27,296 nucleotides of DNA from a virus: positions 1-27,296 of IMG/VR virus record IMGVR_UViG_3300020430_000075; one strand, 5' to 3'. Below the pieces are notes generated by a model that saw only the letters and a list, made by a program, of their open reading frames with translations, did no database searches and was not told where the DNA came from. Every line of letters begins with the position of its first letter. The first letter of the stretch is position 1. Shown here in pieces: positions 3,405 through 24,644 of this stretch. Position numbers and translations under genes: made by a program.

Positions 3405-3417
3405 GTTTACCTCCGTG

Positions 3418-3519
3418 TTAAACCATTGGGTTAAATGCTACTAGACAATAGATCATAGTAACAAACGAAATGATACAGAATATTATCCATATCAAATAGA
3501 TTAAAAAGAAATTATCCAT
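3418..3519 (-). CDS. Single-pass membrane microprotein, 33 aa (putative)
   Basis: A short ORF, MDNFFLIYLIWIIFCIISF at the start and AFNPMV at the end, with AAGGA 8 bases before its ATG. Nearly the whole chain is one hydrophobic helix, so an inner-membrane microprotein is predicted. An in-frame ATG 15 bases upstream would give 38 residues but lacks a ribosome site. It ends 14 bases before the DUF932-type start and would be the first gene of that transcript. It could be a host-takeover or membrane-depolarising peptide, or a chance hydrophobic ORF in AT-rich DNA; the ribosome site and spacing favour a gene. Confidence 0.45.
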   Translation of the reverse strand: MDNFFLIYLIWIIFCIISFVTMIYCLVAFNPMV

Positions 3520-3567
3520 TAACTTATCCTTCATATTAGTTGATGTTGTGTCACTTGTTATGTGTCA

Positions 3568-3592
3568 TACGTTCGTATATCTACGGAACGTA
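3568..3592. other. Stem-loop in leftward leader
   Basis: TACGTTC (3568-3574) pairs with GAACGTA (3586-3592), and the inner GTA/TAC extends the stem to 10 bp around a TATC loop with one bulged G. It lies about 50 bases upstream of the leftward microprotein start. It could act as an operator or as a 5'-end structure of the leader; no T-run follows on either strand, so it is not a terminator. Confidence 0.5.
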
Positions 3593-3621
3593 AGTTGCAA
3601 AGATTCCAGATGCCACCACAG

Positions 3622-3639
3622 CACAGTCTAGTGACTGTG
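3622..3639. other. Stem-loop CACAGTC-TAGT-GACTGTG
   Basis: A perfect 7-bp stem with a 4-base loop on either strand. No T-run follows. Role unknown; as a short symmetric site ahead of an operon containing an HTH protein, an operator is possible but unproven. Confidence 0.45.
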
Positions 3640-3733
3640 TGTGATTAGCATTTTTAGTGTTGTACCATGTTGGGTTGTAGTATTTAGGGGATATGTTTAG
3701 GTAGGTACAAGCACAAAGGTATCGTGGTTGACA

Positions 3734-3763
3734 TAAAAAAAGGACAGATTTCTCTGCCCTTTT
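3734..3763 (-). terminator. Intrinsic terminator of the 145-residue gene
   Basis: Read on the minus strand, GGGCAGA - GAAA - TCTGTCC is a 7-bp stem (one G-U pair in RNA) with a GNRA-type GAAA loop, preceded by an A-run and followed by seven or more T. This is a textbook rho-independent terminator about 10 bases after the stop of the leftward gene at 3770. It separates that gene from the operon further left. Confidence 0.85.
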
Positions 3764-3769
3764 GTTAAG

Positions 3770-4207
3770 TTAGTTAGCTTCTTGGATTGGCTTAAGATCT
3801 TTGCCGAGGATATCGTCAACATCATTAAGTATCTGCGACTTATCTTTAGTAGAAGATTTCTTCCAAGGCTTCCAAACTTCGCCAGTTACTTCTTTGTGAA
3901 CTGCCATATCTGCGTTGAATCTTTCCTCTAATTCAACAAGTTCAAGTTGCATTCGTTTGTAGATATCAACTTTCTTTGCCAACTGAACGGATACAACTTC
4001 AGACTGCTCAGTAGGTCTTAGTGTAGCGATTTCTTCTTTAACGTCTAGCATTTGTTGACATTTGTACTGGATAGAATTGTTTGCAACGAAACAAGCATCT
4101 CTTGCTATGGATTCTCTTGTATAAGCATTTGATTCGCCTGTGTGGTGCATGACAACTGCTAATTTTAAGTTGTAAAGTTCCTTGTTTACTTTGATAGTTT
4201 TCTTCAT
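3770..4207 (-). CDS. Hypothetical protein, intact member of inverted duplication
   Basis: The preferred start is MKKTIKVNKELYNLK (145 residues), with GGAG 6 bases upstream. A longer frame to 4264 adds 19 residues with no ribosome site. The first third has hydrophobic patches (LKLAVVMHH). The middle (residues about 60-110) is charged and looks coiled-coil (KKVDIYKRMQLELVELEERF), and the C-terminus is WKPWKKSSTKDKSQ then an acidic tail. No family is recognised. It is a monocistronic unit: it stands alone, 250 bases from the next gene, with its own strong terminator. A decayed inverted copy lies at 4440-5018 on the other strand. Confidence 0.65.
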   Translation of the reverse strand: MKKTIKVNKELYNLKLAVVMHHTGESNAYTRESIARDACFVANNSIQYKCQQMLDVKEEIATLRPTEQSEVVSVQLAKKVDIYKRMQLELVELEERFNADMAVHKEVTGEVWKPWKKSSTKDKSQILNDVDDILGKDLKPIQEAN

Positions 4208-4276
4208 GATTTTCTCCGTTTTTACAAGATCAGGGAAGTCTGATCCATGTCGTAGCGAAAACATTGCAATTCTGAA

Positions 4277-4365
4277 TACAACAAGAATCTAGGTGGTAGG
4301 GGTGGTCAAAGCCCAAGCCCTGCCTGGGCTTTGTTACCCACACCACCACGCTTATTCTTGTTGTA
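4277..4365. other. Large central stem-loop 1
   Basis: TACAACAAGAAT (4277-4288) pairs perfectly over 12 bp with ATTCTTGTTGTA (4354-4365). Inside, GGTGGT (4292-4297) faces ACCACC (4342-4347), and CAAAGCCCA (4307-4315) pairs perfectly with TGGGCTTTG (4325-4333). The whole 89 bases fold into one long interrupted hairpin with a GC-rich tip, unusual in this AT-rich genome. It lies between the two arms of the inverted repeat. Confidence 0.75.
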
Positions 4366-4375
4366 GGGTTTACCC

Positions 4376-4433
4376 CTGATGTGCGTAACCGAAATGCGTG
4401 GCACTCCTTAGTGCCACACAATTCGCACATCAG
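4376..4433. other. Large central stem-loop 2
   Basis: CTGATGTGCG (4376-4385) pairs with CGCACATCAG (4424-4433), a perfect 10-bp outer stem. GTGGCACT (4398-4405) pairs with AGTGCCAC (4410-4417), a perfect 8-bp inner stem closed by a CCTT loop. It begins 11 bases after stem-loop 1. Neither strand has a T-run after it, so it is not a standard terminator. Confidence 0.75.
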
Positions 4434-4521
4434 TTCTAAGAATTGCCATGTTATCGTGGCGACATTCTTGGGATCAGAGTTCAATGATCGCAGTAGAAAC
4501 GGGTTTAGAAAATCACGAAGA

Positions 4522-4555
4522 AAAGTGTCAAATCTCTTGTAAACAAGAGGACTTT
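4522..4555 (+). other. Stem-loop a in decayed copy
   Basis: CTCTTG (4534-4539) pairs with CAAGAG (4544-4549) around a TAAA loop, flanked by AAAGT (4522-4526) and ACTTT (4551-4555). The intact copy has the AAAGT/ACTTT flanks but lacks the CTCTTG half, so the inner stem arises from an insertion in this arm. Confidence 0.5.
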
Positions 4556-4768
4556 ACAACTTGAAATTCGCTGTTGTTTTTTTAGTATGCACCACACATT
4601 TTAGTAGGCGAATCTAATGCTTATCCTTAAACAAGAGAATCCATGCTTACAGCAAGAGATGGTATGCTTTCGTCAAACAATTATAGACTGTATGAATGTC
4701 TTTAGAAATGCTTGATGTAAAAGATGGAATTGGTACACTTAGTCCTACTTGCATTCTGAGGTTGTAGC

Positions 4769-4793
4769 CTTTCTGTTGCCTTAGCAAAGAAAG
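4769..4793 (+). other. Stem-loop b in decayed copy
   Basis: CTTTCTGTTGC (4769-4779) pairs with GCAAAGAAAG (4784-4793) around a CTTA loop: 10 pairs with one bulged G. The intact copy has the 3' arm (GGCAAAGAAAG) but not the complementary 5' arm. Confidence 0.6.
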
Positions 4794-4839
4794 TCTACAA
4801 ACGACCATGCAACTTAGGACTTTTGAGTTAGATGAAAGT

Positions 4840-4869
4840 GCAGATATCTGTTCACGAAGAAGTATCTGC
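4840..4869 (+). other. Stem-loop c in decayed copy
   Basis: GCAGATA (4840-4846) pairs with TATCTGC (4863-4869) over 7 bp. The intact copy has GCAGATA but reads GTAACTGGC at the partner site, so the pairing is specific to this arm. Confidence 0.5.
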
Positions 4870-4874
4870 GTAGT

Positions 4875-4914
4875 TTGGTAAAGCCTTATCTTCTACTGAA
4901 GATAAGTCTACCAA
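4875..4914 (+). other. Stem-loop d in decayed copy
   Basis: CTTATCTTC (4885-4893) and GAAGATAAG (4898-4906) form a perfect 9-bp stem with a TACT loop. It is enclosed by TTGGTA (4875-4880) and TACCAA (4909-4914), a second perfect 6-bp stem. The intact copy lacks both outer partners and has only a partial inner match. Confidence 0.65.
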
Positions 4915-4928
4915 GCAGATACTTGTTG

Positions 4929-4972
4929 ACGTTATCCGTCTTTGCGAAGATCTCAATCCAAGATGGTAACGT
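4929..4972 (+). other. Stem-loop e in decayed copy
   Basis: ACGTTA-t-CC (4929-4937) pairs with GGTAACGT (4965-4972), 8 pairs with one bulge, around an inner TCTT/AAGA stem (4939-4950). The intact copy has no equivalent pairing. Confidence 0.5.
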
Positions 4973-4977
4973 ACCAT

Positions 4978-5016
4978 AACAAAAGACTAGGCAGAGAAAT
5001 CTGCCAACCTTTTGTT
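4978..5016 (+). other. Stem-loop f, altered copy of the terminator
   Basis: GGCAGA-GAAA-TCTGCC (4990-5005) is the counterpart of the terminator at 3734-3763. Here it is closed by an extra perfect 8-bp outer stem, AACAAAAG (4978-4985) with CTTTTGTT (5009-5016). The continuous T-run of the intact terminator is interrupted to CCTTTTGTTAGG, so termination should be weaker while folding is stronger. Confidence 0.65.
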
Positions 5017-5021
5017 AGGTC

Positions 5022-5084
5022 AAGCACAAAGAAACAAATAGTCAATTCGCCCTTGCGAATTGTCCATACTTGTCCTTTGTGCTT
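5022..5084. other. Nested stem-loop g
   Basis: AAGCACAAAG (5022-5031) pairs perfectly with CTTTGTGCTT (5075-5084). CAATTCGC (5043-5050) pairs with GCGAATTG (5055-5062) around a CCTT loop, the same loop as central stem-loop 2. The AAGCACAAAG block also occurs at 3709-3718, so it is present three times (two plus, one minus) around this region. Confidence 0.7.
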
Positions 5085-5101
5085 ATTTAAGACGTTTCTT
5101 T

Positions 5102-5113
5102 ACTTAGCTAAGT
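5102..5113. other. Perfect 12-base palindrome
   Basis: ACTTAGCTAAGT equals its own reverse complement. It has the form of a site for a dimeric DNA-binding protein. It lies within the chain of inverted repeats leading to the small-terminase-like gene. Confidence 0.4.
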
Positions 5114-5135
5114 CCTTGTTATTGCAAGAGAATAA

Positions 5136-5155
5136 AAAGCCCTTGACAGGGCTTT
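5136..5155. other. Stem-loop h (AAAGCCCT / AGGGCTTT)
   Basis: A perfect 8-bp stem with a TGAC loop, preceded by an A-run and ending in a short T-run (GGGCTTTCG). It resembles a weak terminator on either strand. On the minus strand the A-run before it becomes a T-run after the stem (AGGGCTTTTTATT), so it could stop leftward transcription. Confidence 0.5.
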
Positions 5156-5171
5156 CGCCTTACCCCATAAA
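5143..5171 (+). promoter_or_regulatory. Possible sigma-70-like promoter for rightward block
   Basis: A perfect -35 hexamer TTGACA (5143-5148) is followed at 17 bases by CATAAA (5166-5171, 4 of 6 matches to TATAAT). Initiation would fall a few bases before the ribosome site of the small-terminase-like gene, giving a very short leader. The element overlaps two hairpins, so it may be coincidental. No other good hexamer pair was found in the region. Confidence 0.3.
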
Positions 5172-5183
5172 AAGGGGGTAAGG
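5158..5183 (+). promoter_or_regulatory. Hairpin abutting the ribosome site at 5182
   Basis: CCTTACCCC (5158-5166) pairs perfectly over 9 bp with GGGGTAAGG (5175-5183). The last two stem bases are the first two Gs of the GGGGG ribosome site (5182-5186) used by the TTG start at 5193. Folding would partly hide that site, so translation of the first rightward gene may be structure-controlled. Confidence 0.45.
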
Positions 5184-5192
5184 GGGATTCTC

Positions 5193-5564
5193 TTGTTAAC
5201 AAGGTCGAAGCTAACAAAGAAACAGACTGCTCTAGTTGATACGATTGTAGCATTTGGTTGTAGTATCACAGAGGCAAGTCGTAAAGCTGGATATGCAGAA
5301 GGTGAATCAGGAAGAGTGACAGCCAGTAAGGCTTTACGGTTGCCTCATGTTCAAGAGTATATGCAACAGAGAATTAGAGAAAGCATTGGTATAAATGCTA
5401 CGATAGCCTCAGCTAAGGTACTCGACCTAGCACAAGGCGCTAAGTCTGAGTACGTACAGCTAGAGGCATCAAAGGATATACTTGATAGGGCAGGCTATAA
5501 ACCTACAGAAAAATCTATGACACTTGTCCAAGGTAATATCAATGTGTCTATAGACTTGACTTGA
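5193..5564 (+). CDS. terS: Small terminase subunit-like protein
   Basis: A 123-residue protein starting at TTG, 6 bases after GGGGG. Residues about 7-55 read LTKKQTALVDTIVAFGCSITEASRKAGYAEG and then SKALRLPHVQEYMQQR. This is the classic terminase_2-type N-terminal helix-turn-helix (L-T-x-K-Q-x-x-x-V ... G ... A-x-x-x-A-G-Y) with the usual 'P-x-V-x-x-Y/F' helix. It would bind the viral packaging site and hand DNA to the large subunit. Position upstream of the large subunit fits, though eight small genes intervene. The adjacent palindromes could be its recognition site. The initiator lies inside the 12-base palindrome CTTGTTAACAAG. Confidence 0.75.
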   Translation: MLTRSKLTKKQTALVDTIVAFGCSITEASRKAGYAEGESGRVTASKALRLPHVQEYMQQRIRESIGINATIASAKVLDLAQGAKSEYVQLEASKDILDRAGYKPTEKSMTLVQGNINVSIDLT

Positions 5565-5639: not shown

Positions 5640-5939
5640 ATGGCTAAGACACCTGCATGGCAAAGAAAAGAGGGCAAGAATCCTAAAGGTGGATTAAATG
5701 CTAAGGGTCGTGCCAGTTATAAAGGTGGAACACTGAAGCCACCAGTTAAGAGTGGTGACAATCCCAGACGAGCAAGTTTCTTAGCTAGAATGGGAAACAT
5801 GAAAGGACCTGAAAGAGATGCTAAAGGCAAACCTACTAGATTATTATTATCGCTTCGTGCATGGGGTGCTTCGAGTAAAGCAGATGCTCGTGCAAAGGCT
5901 AGAGCAATTACTAAACGAAATAAGGCAAAAAAGAAATAA
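5640..5939 (+). CDS. Conserved basic phage protein, DUF6321-like
   Basis: A 99-residue, very basic protein. It starts MAKTPAWQRKEGKNPKGGLN, followed by AKGRASYKGG, SGDNPRRASFLARMGNMKGP and KGKPTRLLLSLRAWGASSKA. I recall this signature from conserved phage proteins often labelled DUF6321; the function is unknown. The Lys/Arg content and the Gly/Pro-rich N-terminal half suggest nucleic-acid binding. AAGG lies 6 bases before the ATG. First of the run of small genes between the terminase subunits. Confidence 0.7.
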   Translation: MAKTPAWQRKEGKNPKGGLNAKGRASYKGGTLKPPVKSGDNPRRASFLARMGNMKGPERDAKGKPTRLLLSLRAWGASSKADARAKARAITKRNKAKKK

Positions 5940-5979
5940 GTATGAGTTCATTAAAATCCAATCAGCAAAGGAGAGTACC

Positions 5980-6105
5980 ATGTATGGAACAATGAAGAAA
6001 ACTACTACCAAGAAGAAAGCTACTGGTGGAGGTCTTACCAAGAAACAAAAGACTTTACCAAAACAGCTTCAGCAAAAAATTATGAAAGCTAAAAAGAAAA
6101 AGTAA
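5980..6105 (+). CDS. Small Lys-rich protein, 41 aa
   Basis: Starts MYGTMKKTTTKKKATGGG with GGAG 6 bases upstream and ends KQLQQKIMKAKKKK. About a third of the residues are lysine. The TAATG at its end couples it to the next gene. A longer in-frame start exists but has no ribosome site and would overlap the DUF6321-like gene. Function unknown; nucleic-acid binding is plausible from charge alone. Confidence 0.6.
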   Translation: MYGTMKKTTTKKKATGGGLTKKQKTLPKQLQQKIMKAKKKK

Positions 6106-6278
6106 TGGCTAAGAGTAGAGTCAACGAGGCAGGTAACTATACCAAACCATCTATGAGGAAAGCGATCTTTCAAAGGATCAAAGCAGGAACTAAAGGTGGC
6201 AAGGCAGGACAGTGGTCTGCTCGTAAGGCACAGATGTTAGCCAAACAATATAAAGCAAGGGGAGGTGGATACAGATGA
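6105..6278 (+). CDS. Conserved small basic phage protein, 57 aa
   Basis: Reads MAKSRVNEAGNYTKPSMRK, then RIKAGTKGGKAGQWSARKAQ and MLAKQYKARGGGYR. I recognise the pattern (S-x-V-N-x-A-G-N-Y-T-K-P ... Q-W-S-A-R-K-A-Q-x-L-A-K-x-Y) as a recurring small protein of marine phages with no assigned role. It overlaps its neighbours at TAATG and ATGA, so it is tightly coupled. Confidence 0.7.
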   Translation: MAKSRVNEAGNYTKPSMRKAIFQRIKAGTKGGKAGQWSARKAQMLAKQYKARGGGYR

Positions 6279-6430
6279 AGAAGGCACTTACACCAAGACA
6301 GAAAGAAACTCTTAAACGTCATGCCAAACATCATACTGCAAAGCATATGGCAAGTATGCGAAAGGACATGATGGCAGGTATGTCATTTACAGCTAGTCAT
6401 AAGAAAGCTATGAAAAAAGTTGGGAAGTAA
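6275..6430 (+). CDS. Conserved small basic phage protein, 51 aa
   Basis: Reads MKKALTPRQKETLKRHAKHH, then TAKHMASMRKDMMAG and SFTASHKKAMKKVGK. Rich in Lys, His and Met. The LTxRQxETLKRHxxHHTxKHM block recurs in phage genomes near structural genes; the function is unknown. It overlaps the previous gene by ATGA and the next by one base (TAATG). Confidence 0.7.
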   Translation: MKKALTPRQKETLKRHAKHHTAKHMASMRKDMMAGMSFTASHKKAMKKVGK

Positions 6431-6705
6431 TGGCAGATCCCAAGGTAGGAACTGGTAAGAAACCAAAGGGTACTGGTCGCAGACTTTATACAGACGAGAA
6501 CCCAAAAGATACTGTGTCCATAAAATTTGCTACCCCTGCTGATGCTCGTGCTACTGTTAGAAAAGTTATGAAGGTCAGGAAACCTTTTGCTAGAAAAATA
6601 CAGATCCTTACTGTTGGAGAGCAACGAGCAAAGGTTATGAAGAAAAGAGCAGTTGTAAATATTTTTAAAAAGGGTAAAGATAAAATCCGAAAGGATATGG
6701 CATAA
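6430..6705 (+). CDS. Conserved phage protein, 91 aa
   Basis: Begins MADPKVGTGKKPKGTGRRLY, then TDENPKDTVSIKFATPADAR, KPFARKIQILTVGEQRAKVM and a basic C-terminus. This is a highly recognisable conserved protein of uncultured marine phages. The central part alternates hydrophobic and polar residues like a small beta/alpha domain. No function is assigned. It is coupled at both ends through TAATG junctions. Confidence 0.7.
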   Translation: MADPKVGTGKKPKGTGRRLYTDENPKDTVSIKFATPADARATVRKVMKVRKPFARKIQILTVGEQRAKVMKKRAVVNIFKKGKDKIRKDMA

Positions 6706-6965
6706 TGGCATTATCTAAATCACAGAGATCGCTTCGTGCATGGACAAGACAGAAATGGAGAACTAAATCAGGTAAACCTAGTACTCAAGGACCAAAAGCT
6801 ACTGGTGAACGTTATCTACCTGAGAAAGCGATTAAGGCTCTTTCTGCCAGTGAATATGCCGCCTCTACGGCTAAAAAGCGAGAGGCAACTAGAAGAGGTA
6901 AACAAGTATCTAAACAGCCAAAAAAGATTGCTGCAAAAACGAAAAGATTTAGAAGCTACTCGTAA
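6705..6965 (+). CDS. Conserved basic phage protein, DUF5872-like
   Basis: An 86-residue basic protein: SLRAWTRQKWRTKSGKPS, then GERYLPEKAIKALSASEYAA and RGKQVSKQPKKIAAKTK. This matches my memory of DUF5872 (K-S-L-R-x-W-x-x-Q-K-W-R-T-K-S-G ... G-E-R-Y-L-P-x-x-A). The role is unknown; strong positive charge suggests DNA or RNA contact. It shares the SLRAW motif, and a 16-base identical DNA block, with the protein at 5640-5939. Confidence 0.7.
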   Translation: MALSKSQRSLRAWTRQKWRTKSGKPSTQGPKATGERYLPEKAIKALSASEYAASTAKKREATRRGKQVSKQPKKIAAKTKRFRSYS

Positions 6966-6982
6966 ACTAAAGGAGAAGTTAT

Positions 6983-7198
6983 ATGGCAATACCCAAGAAT
7001 GGAAAAAAGAAAAGCCTATTAAAAAGTAATAAAGAAATGAAGATGGCTGAGTTATCAGGTGGTGATATTAGACAAATGGCAGGTGATCGTGGCTTTCGTG
7101 AATATCTAAGTGGCAAAGGTATGAATGTAGATAAGATTCCTACAAAAGAAATAATGCTTGAAGAATATATGAAATATTTAAATAGTACTGGTCAATGA
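6983..7198 (+). CDS. Hypothetical protein, 71 aa
   Basis: ATG with AAGGAG upstream. The start MAIPKNGKKKSLLKSNKEMK is basic, and the remainder is mixed (GGDIRQMAGDRGFREYL, EEYMKYL). It is the last of the basic series and overlaps the next gene by ATGA. No family recognised. Confidence 0.6.
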   Translation: MAIPKNGKKKSLLKSNKEMKMAELSGGDIRQMAGDRGFREYLSGKGMNVDKIPTKEIMLEEYMKYLNSTGQ

Positions 7199-23739: not shown

Positions 23740-24644
23740 TGACAATAGTATTGAGTGCAAATACACCACGAATAAGTTACACTGTTAATGAGGGTGACTC
23801 TCGTACAACTTTTCCTACTGATTTTGTATTTTTTGAAACAACAGATGTAAATGTTTTTGTTGATGGAGTTGCAAGATCATTTGATGCTTCAACATCAAGC
23901 TCAACAAAGTTTACTCTAAGTGGTGGCAATGGTTCTACTGGAACTGTAACAACACCTGTCACTGGCGCAACTGGTGGCAGTACTGTTGTCATCACTAGAG
24001 ATGTTGAGCTTAAACGTACTACTGACTTTCCTAGTTCAGGTGCTTTTGAGATTTCTAAATTAAATACAGAGTTAGATACTATTATTACAATGATATCTGA
24101 CTCACAAGATGAAAACTCAAGAGCAGTAAGATTGCTTGATAATGATGATTCAGCTACTTTGACATTGCCTCTCAAAGCAGATAGAGCAGGTAAAATATTA
24201 GGATTCAATTCATCATCAGGAAATGCTGAAGCTGTTAACCATATTACTACAGCGGCAGTTACAGTATCTACATTAAGTGCAGGATCTTCTGCTACTGCAA
24301 CTGTATCACAATCAGGTAATACAGCTACATTTGCATTAGGTATACCTACTGGTCCTGCAGGTGCAACTGGCGCAACTGGTGCTACTGGAGCAACTGGTGC
24401 AACTGGATCAACTGGTGCAACTGGACCTCAAGGACCTACTGGACCTCAAGGTCCTGCAGGAGCAGATGGTGATATGACAAGTTTTACAGTAGCAGGATCA
24501 TCAGGTTCAAGCCAAACTATTACAAATGGTAACACATTAACTATTGCCGCAGGATCAGGAATAACAACAACTGCTAGTGCAACTGATACTGTTACTATAG
24601 CTGTCACTGCTGATCCAATAGCTTTTGCGATTGGACTTGGATAA
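23739..24644 (+). CDS. Tail fibre with T7-type anchor and collagen-like repeat
   Basis: 301 residues. Residues 1 to about 150 follow the T7 gp17 N-terminal anchor: PRISYTVNEGDSRTTFPTDF, VNVFVDGVARSF, VVITRDVELKRTTDFPSSGA and ELDTIITMISDSQDENSRAV. This part binds the nozzle. After a linker, residues about 205-245 are Gly-X-Y collagen-like (GPAGATGATG... GPQGPTGPQGPAG), then a short Ser/Thr/Gly-rich tip. There is no large receptor-binding domain, so this is probably a short connector to which the adhesin products downstream attach. The start overlaps the stop of the giant core gene. Confidence 0.85.
   Translation: MTIVLSANTPRISYTVNEGDSRTTFPTDFVFFETTDVNVFVDGVARSFDASTSSSTKFTLSGGNGSTGTVTTPVTGATGGSTVVITRDVELKRTTDFPSSGAFEISKLNTELDTIITMISDSQDENSRAVRLLDNDDSATLTLPLKADRAGKILGFNSSSGNAEAVNHITTAAVTVSTLSAGSSATATVSQSGNTATFALGIPTGPAGATGATGATGATGATGSTGATGPQGPTGPQGPAGADGDMTSFTVAGSSGSSQTITNGNTLTIAAGSGITTTASATDTVTIAVTADPIAFAIGLG
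24351..24471 (+). repeat. Collagen-like Gly-X-Y coding repeat
   Basis: Nine-base units of the type GG(T/C/A)GCAACT repeat here, encoding G-A-T units and then G-P-Q/G-P-T/G-P-A units. In phage fibres such repeats form trimeric triple helices. DNA repetition makes the stretch prone to length change. Confidence 0.8.

Follow-up and report, generated by a model that had tools for sequence, protein, structure and literature searches.

What does a phage gain from carrying, on its plus strand and next to a terminase gene, a non-coding copy of the neighbouring minus-strand gene? A first-pass annotation of this locus read positions 4522-5016 as a decayed gene copy that had repeatedly completed hairpins absent from its parent, and proposed a structured RNA of roughly 600-900 bases. 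Comparison among related phages shows a co-evolving inverted repeat whose plus strand is under selection to form a bulged rod. The region looks like a large, previously undescribed kind of phage RNA, and not a decaying gene copy.

An early gene and its mirrored copy lie upstream of terS

The window (the whole 27,296-nt stretch analysed) covers 27 kb of a dsDNA phage genome, in which head-tail connector, terminase and capsid genes were recognised. The large terminase shares 65% identity with the one in Pelagibacter phage EXVC031P Hodr, which makes SAR11 the likely host. Minus (leftward) genes meet plus (rightward) genes at about 4.2-5.2 kb; the following features were found in and around this region.

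3724..4361, plus strand: left arm of the rod, antisense of the early gene and its terminator (self-palindrome; MFE rod)
3738..3763, minus strand: intrinsic terminator for the early gene, located at the left-arm base; a conserved block in L052, L016 and L099
3773..4207, minus strand: early gene for an all-helical protein of 145 aa; start ATG at 4207, SD GGAG
4363..5027 (approximate), plus strand: right arm of the rod, a non-coding 'mimic' of the gene's mRNA that contains the supposedly decayed copy (alignment, palindrome, MFE)
5143..5171, plus strand: putative late promoter for terS (TTGACA, 17 nt, CATAAA), right of the rod, a consensus match only
5193..5564, plus strand: terS, terminase small subunit, first rightward gene (PF03592; phrog_2538)

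The early gene begins at the same Met in the relatives L052, L016 and L099, and a 164-aa reading from 4264 is probably over-extended. Its protein matched no Pfam or PHROG family at the default cut-off, and a fold search with its all-helical fold gave no significant or confident structural match. Among annotated phage records, neither protein relatives of the gene nor DNA relatives of the rod region were detected; there, only terL and terS led to a relative, Pelagibacter phage Hodr. The genome contigs searched contained no relatives. The putative terS promoter element recurs in L099, L181 and L081 and, because it is situated between the rod and terS, terS could have a leader that does not include the rod.

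Several other features of the window were recorded. At 5131-5192, hairpins AAAAGCCCTTGACAGGGCTTTT and CCTTACCCCATAAAAAGGGGGTAAGG flank both the ribosome site of terS and its putative late promoter, and about 85 nt of this hairpin region is conserved across many phages. Left of the rod lies an unusually long non-coding gap (3405-3723), of which only the right end (GTGGTTGACA...) is kept in four lineages, as a possible plus promoter site. A run of very small Lys/Arg-rich ORFs lies between terS and terL (5640-7198), and a collagen-like Gly-X-Y repeat at 24346-24471 (GATGATGAT...GPQGPAG) marks a probable tail-fibre gene. A tRNA scan found none.

Gene and copy are the two arms of one long rod

Self-alignment revealed a single quasi-palindrome of about 1.3 kb (3724-5027, E=3e-161). 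Its left arm (3724-4361) is the exact complement of the early gene and terminator, as in cis-encoded antisense, and its right arm is, in the window, an untranslatable and imperfect mirror of the early-gene mRNA. The plus-strand copy seen in the first pass does exist: it aligned to the minus-strand gene with 72% identity over 622 columns (E=3e-85). Most of its bases, however, also pair with the gene's own strand in the larger rod, a point on which the first-pass framing was mistaken.

The plus strand of 3700-5192 was predicted to fold into an almost unbroken rod with an MFE of -729 kcal/mol, against -659 kcal/mol for the minus strand. The rod comprises about 560 bp and is bulged; its apex and one double bulge are conserved. 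Its left end is the gene terminator in the window group, and the whole gene is spanned in other long-rod lineages. Compared with shuffled controls, folding was strongly favoured both for 4522-5016 (z -6.1) and for 4276-5190 (z -12.9), whereas the early gene mRNA folded like its own shuffles (z +0.2). A plus-strand rod of about 1,300 nt is well supported by the comparison among lineages, and it is both larger than the 600-900 bases first suggested and of another kind. We infer its transcription and function. Inside the rod there is no strong plus-strand terminator; at its left base no convincing plus promoter was found, and promoter scans did not agree on where a plus RNA would begin. Between the gene and the right base, the window has minus-strand terminator-like sites at 5156-5135, 5062-5043 and 4420-4395.

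The arms co-evolve in diverged lineages

In every relative, the copy is about 68-73% identical to its own gene (about 70-73% in L006/L007, L052, L016, L099 and others) and about 60% identical to the copies of other phages; the L099 copy-versus-gene value was derived from its palindrome. Since the copy follows its own gene even where lineages have diverged, with compensatory changes present, a neutral pseudogene was rejected, and the copy cannot be called decaying. Among the left-arm differences between lineages, 43-73% are Watson-Crick paired in both lineages (window versus L052, 83/145; window versus L016, 125/189; L016 versus L099, 82/113). In an alignment of nine rods (A4), 95.6% of cells were paired, against at most 42% when the partners were slid. 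The same alignment holds 67 pairs changed on both sides, compared with at most 12 in the slid controls, which is covariation of the kind that marks a structured RNA. Several adjacent double changes, in columns 32-35 of A4, resemble multi-base template-switch events.

Pairing is maintained on the plus strand

Standing G·U pairs outnumbered A·C pairs on the plus strand by 533 to 160, and G·U was the higher in 16/16 long-rod lineages counted. The recent changes were scored in nine pairs that we picked, one per close group (window-L006, L052-L181, L181-L182, L215-L220, L203-L210, L200-L218, L201-L213, L192-L198 and L016-L102). One-sided changes numbered 100 WC/GU against 13 WC/AC (p=4e-18), in addition to 80 double WC changes. 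At 98-99% identity the changes were mostly one-sided, with G·U differences present, and double changes accumulated later. The MFE was lower on the plus than on the minus strand in every long-rod lineage. Wobble pairs are thus tolerated in a strand-specific manner, as in structured RNAs. A plus-strand mutation bias was rejected as the source of the asymmetry, as four-fold degenerate sites in the window lack the G excess that a plus-strand C-to-T bias would cause.

Together, the G·U excess and the co-evolution of the arms indicate that selection acts on base pairing within a plus single strand, an RNA rod being the simplest case. Pairing of plus single-stranded DNA would yield the same bias, as G·T. 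The first-pass proposal of a structured RNA is thereby strongly supported, by homologues and covariation, as far as selection for a large plus-strand RNA is concerned; the main fold, however, is the rod and not a series of hairpins. Clades with short rods show little or no G·U bias, and in L045 it is reversed (1:12).

The apex, one double bulge and the mimic start

Three elements of the rod are kept in sequence or by covariation, and a fourth resembles a translation start.

4277..4365, plus strand: apical hairpin with a sequence-conserved internal loop (AATCTAGGT...ACGCTTATT), kept in relatives
4376..4433, plus strand: second apical hairpin, fully covarying (CTGATGTGC/GCACATCAG; GGGCGAA/TTCGCCC; CGCTAGGCGAA/TTCGCCTAGCG)
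4501..4517, plus strand: disabled mimic translation start, its SD split by GTTT (4503-4506) and its ATG changed to ACG (4515-4517)
4577..4608, plus strand: double bulge motif TTTTAGTA-TGC...TTTTAGTAGG of the right arm, shared by every long-rod lineage examined

The apical hairpin at 4277-4365 is also found in L013, L018, L020 and L021, all of them without the long rod. The first copy of the double bulge (TTTTAGTATGC...TTTTAGTAGG) is present in 20/20 lineages listed, and the second copy varies. The other bulges of the rod keep their places while their sequences change.

The mimic start is disabled within the window sub-clade (L052, L016, L099, L181 and L185), and SD and ATG are kept elsewhere. 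The 4-nt insert that splits the SD varies in sequence, and L099 has ATAG in place of the mimic ATG; SD and start codon were disabled independently (ACG, ATAG, split SD). Silencing of the mimic as a universal rule was rejected, given its confinement to this sub-clade.

Local hairpins are a trait of the window sub-clade

Folding of the right arm by itself produced the following helices.

4533..4551, plus strand: local hairpin TCTCTTG/CAAGAGG, which uses the bulge TCTCTT and competes with the rod; counterparts in L052 and L099
4769..4793, plus strand: local hairpin CTTTCTGTTGC/GCAAAGAAAG, stem CTTTCT-TTGC/GCAA-AGAAAG (right-arm folding)
4861..4924, plus strand: local hairpin AAGTATCTGC/GCAGATACTT, with CTTATCTTC/GAAGATAAG nested within TTGGT/ACCAA (4875 onwards); bulge at 4909-4914
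4929 onwards, plus strand: local hairpin ACGTTA/TAACGT (right arm folded alone)
4977..5017, plus strand: local hairpin TAACAAAAG/CTTTTGTTA around GGCAGA/TCTGCC, a mirrored-terminator remnant; conserved in L052, L016 and L099

The hairpins listed in the first pass are thus true local helices when the right arm is folded alone with a short span; the one at 4840-4869 is present, but as just one option of a competing helix. That at 4861-4924 has covarying counterparts in L052, L016 and L099. When the right-arm substitutions were placed at random sites, the energy was -138 +/- 7 kcal/mol, compared with -187 observed (z -6.2 to -6.8). By lineage, the z of random placement was -6.8 for the window, -4.1 for L052, -3.5 for L016, -8.4 for L099, -2.9 for L185 and -2.1 for both L181 and L215, with the remaining lineages between -1.3 and +1.8. 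The local hairpins are partly shared, 55-62% of their pairs being canonical against about 40% when slid. A preference for local pairing at positions that are not Watson-Crick paired in the rod was rejected, the Fisher test being mostly not significant.

The repeated gain of hairpins that had been remarked on is therefore beyond chance, but it is limited to the window sub-clade and has no strand preference. Because the local hairpin energies of the right arm hardly differ between the strands, the hairpins may be products of template switching. They are a sub-clade trait, which could stem either from that process or from selection acting on a second fold.

Distribution of the rod among related phages

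The protein-family profile of the early gene retrieved 48 loci. Gene-long rods occur in about 44 IMG/VR contigs, the window included, by our own tally of contigs, some of which are near-identical. With five exceptions, the family loci analysed bear a rod that is gene-long or cut by a contig end (619-1,315 nt). L212 and L219 carry the gene without a palindrome, and in L214, L223 and L224 the palindrome is only about 300-340 nt.

Other phages with this terS have palindromes of about 340-560 nt at the same place, where the first leftward gene belongs to other families. The shorter rods always include the start of that gene, with a left arm reaching 28-185 nt past it where measured, and their wobble bias is mixed. 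In the cultured Pelagibacter phage Hodr (L178) a 543-nt palindrome shows no strand bias. Phages of the L192 type have, at the right base of the rod, a strong promoter-like sequence on the minus strand (TTGTCA, 18, TATACT).

The first leftward gene upstream of terS comes from several families that differ by clade and have no detectable mutual similarity; some have a C-terminal G..W/H-KPW-like motif in common and could be distantly related. In L192, L194, L195 and L198 a strong minus promoter-like site lies just right of the rod, inside an inverted repeat (TGACGTA...TACGTAACGTCA), and adjoins a plus-strand TTGACA, which looks like a divergent promoter with an operator. Two further, shorter structured elements were seen upstream of terS, where they take the place of the rod in other phages of the group: one of about 110 nt at approximately -205..-78 in L008, L031, L036, L043, L048, L049, L051, L066 and L071, and one of 135-150 nt at approximately -250..-98 in L014, L017, L023, L032, L037, L038 and L054. 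Both are possibly compact counterparts of the rod.

Comparison with known RNAs

A search of 3700-5300 with the Rfam 15 covariance models (GOLLD, ROOL, OLE and others; E up to 10) returned sub-threshold chance matches only, and none of 11 relatives matched at the gathering score. The first-pass remark that it fitted no recognised large phage RNA class agrees with Rfam. No report of such an RNA was found in open-access papers, and from these two sources no described RNA class with a gene-mirroring rod design emerged.

Like cis-encoded antisense RNAs, the rod has an arm perfectly complementary to a protein gene, including the start region. It differs in carrying a co-evolving, gene-length mimic; we know of no ordinary antisense RNA on which such a mimic folds back. 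Hairpin RNAs of eukaryotic RNAi similarly turn inverted gene fragments into a long self-duplex RNA that can act on the parent mRNA, but the duplex here is broken by conserved bulges and, to our knowledge, bacteria have no RNAi. GOLLD and ROOL are large ornate RNAs of phages and prophages, ROOL with multiple pseudoknots, often located near tRNA islands (PMC12286853). They too are large, structured and phage-encoded, with function unestablished (PMC12286853), but their folds are elaborate, in contrast to an unbranched rod that overlaps a protein gene beside terS. Obelisks, viroid-like RNAs and hepatitis delta also form self-complementary rods of about 1 kb with a protein encoded along the rod, and are RNA replicons (PMC11922315), whereas here the genome is that of a dsDNA phage and the protein lies on the strand opposite the rod.

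A model for the rod and its alternatives

As the best explanation, with a likelihood somewhat below even, we propose that the plus-strand rod works as a self-caged antisense RNA directed at the early gene. We favour it because the rod spans the gene, short rods include the gene start, and the mimic is imperfect and, in the window, untranslatable. A plus-strand RNA would start near the left base (~3700), run antisense through the gene and then through the apex and the mimic. On self-folding, its antisense arm would be duplexed with a 70% matching partner, the mimic, which would stabilise the arm and shield it from ribosomes. The mRNA could displace the mimic because its match is perfect and that of the mimic is not, so that the mRNA would be silenced as rod RNA accumulates. 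The predicted outcome is that the first early gene, at the early/late divergence, would be shut off with a delay. The displaced mimic of the window sub-clade may relax into the local hairpins, which would favour the exchange. The best counter-evidence is the minus promoter at the right base in the L192 class, from which the other strand of the rod would be transcribed. The lack of a convincing plus promoter at the left base, the little or no G·U bias of short-rod clades, and the intact SD and ATG of the mimic outside the window sub-clade also speak against it. The fullest statement of this proposal, a new giant-RNA class of marine podoviruses in which a plus rod of 1.1-1.3 kb joins early-gene antisense to a co-evolving, translation-dead mimic as a self-caged strand-displacement switch, is possible but rather doubtful.

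On the unlikely side is a structural rod RNA that would serve as an RNA-protein scaffold or as a sponge, binding for instance a host RNase or a protein of the phage, with the double bulge and apex loop as binding sites and the gene overlap incidental. Conservation of the double bulge (TTTTAGTA...TTTTAG) in long-rod lineages and of the apical loop, even in L013-type phages without the long rod, is what it predicts, and structured RNA persists upstream of terS although rod length differs widely by clade. A scaffold, however, needs no coding overlap, and the left arm ends at the gene terminator (window group) or spans the gene.

Another reading, in which the arms evolve in concert through template switching or gene conversion at the DNA level and any RNA is a by-product, is improbable. 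Hairpins are known to arise and persist by template switching, through compensatory multi-base changes (PMC8794818); the process can create inverted repeats and paired changes, and some adjacent double changes in A4 look like this type. It is a mutation process and not a function, and does not predict a wobble bias on one strand. Conversion should not yield G·U over A·C at 100:13; it should erase the conserved bulges and would restore the mimic start codon. Further, at 98-99% identity one-sided G·U differences are seen while double changes are still rare.

Equally improbable is a function of the minus strand, in which early mRNA would begin at the right base and carry a 5' leader complementary to its own coding region, controlling translation or decay. 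The strong minus promoter of L192-type phages and the constant inclusion of the gene start in rods fit it, but the wobble bias favours the plus strand in every long-rod lineage, and in the window the three minus-strand terminator-like sites separate the right base from the gene. The original reading, a recent duplicate decaying into a local-hairpin RNA, is very unlikely as the main account: local hairpins do surpass what random placement gives within the window sub-clade (z -2.1 to -8.4) and are shared in part, but in each lineage the copy tracks its own gene, the arms co-evolve, z is near 0 in most other long-rod lineages and the hairpins have no strand bias.

More than 1 kb of a small phage genome is spent on a rod that mirrors a whole gene and whose register is kept by many compensatory changes. 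The many lineages available, rodless ones included, make its function directly testable. If the proposal is true, the rod would represent a novel way of exerting antisense control, or else a large phage RNA of a new type, probably in phages of SAR11.
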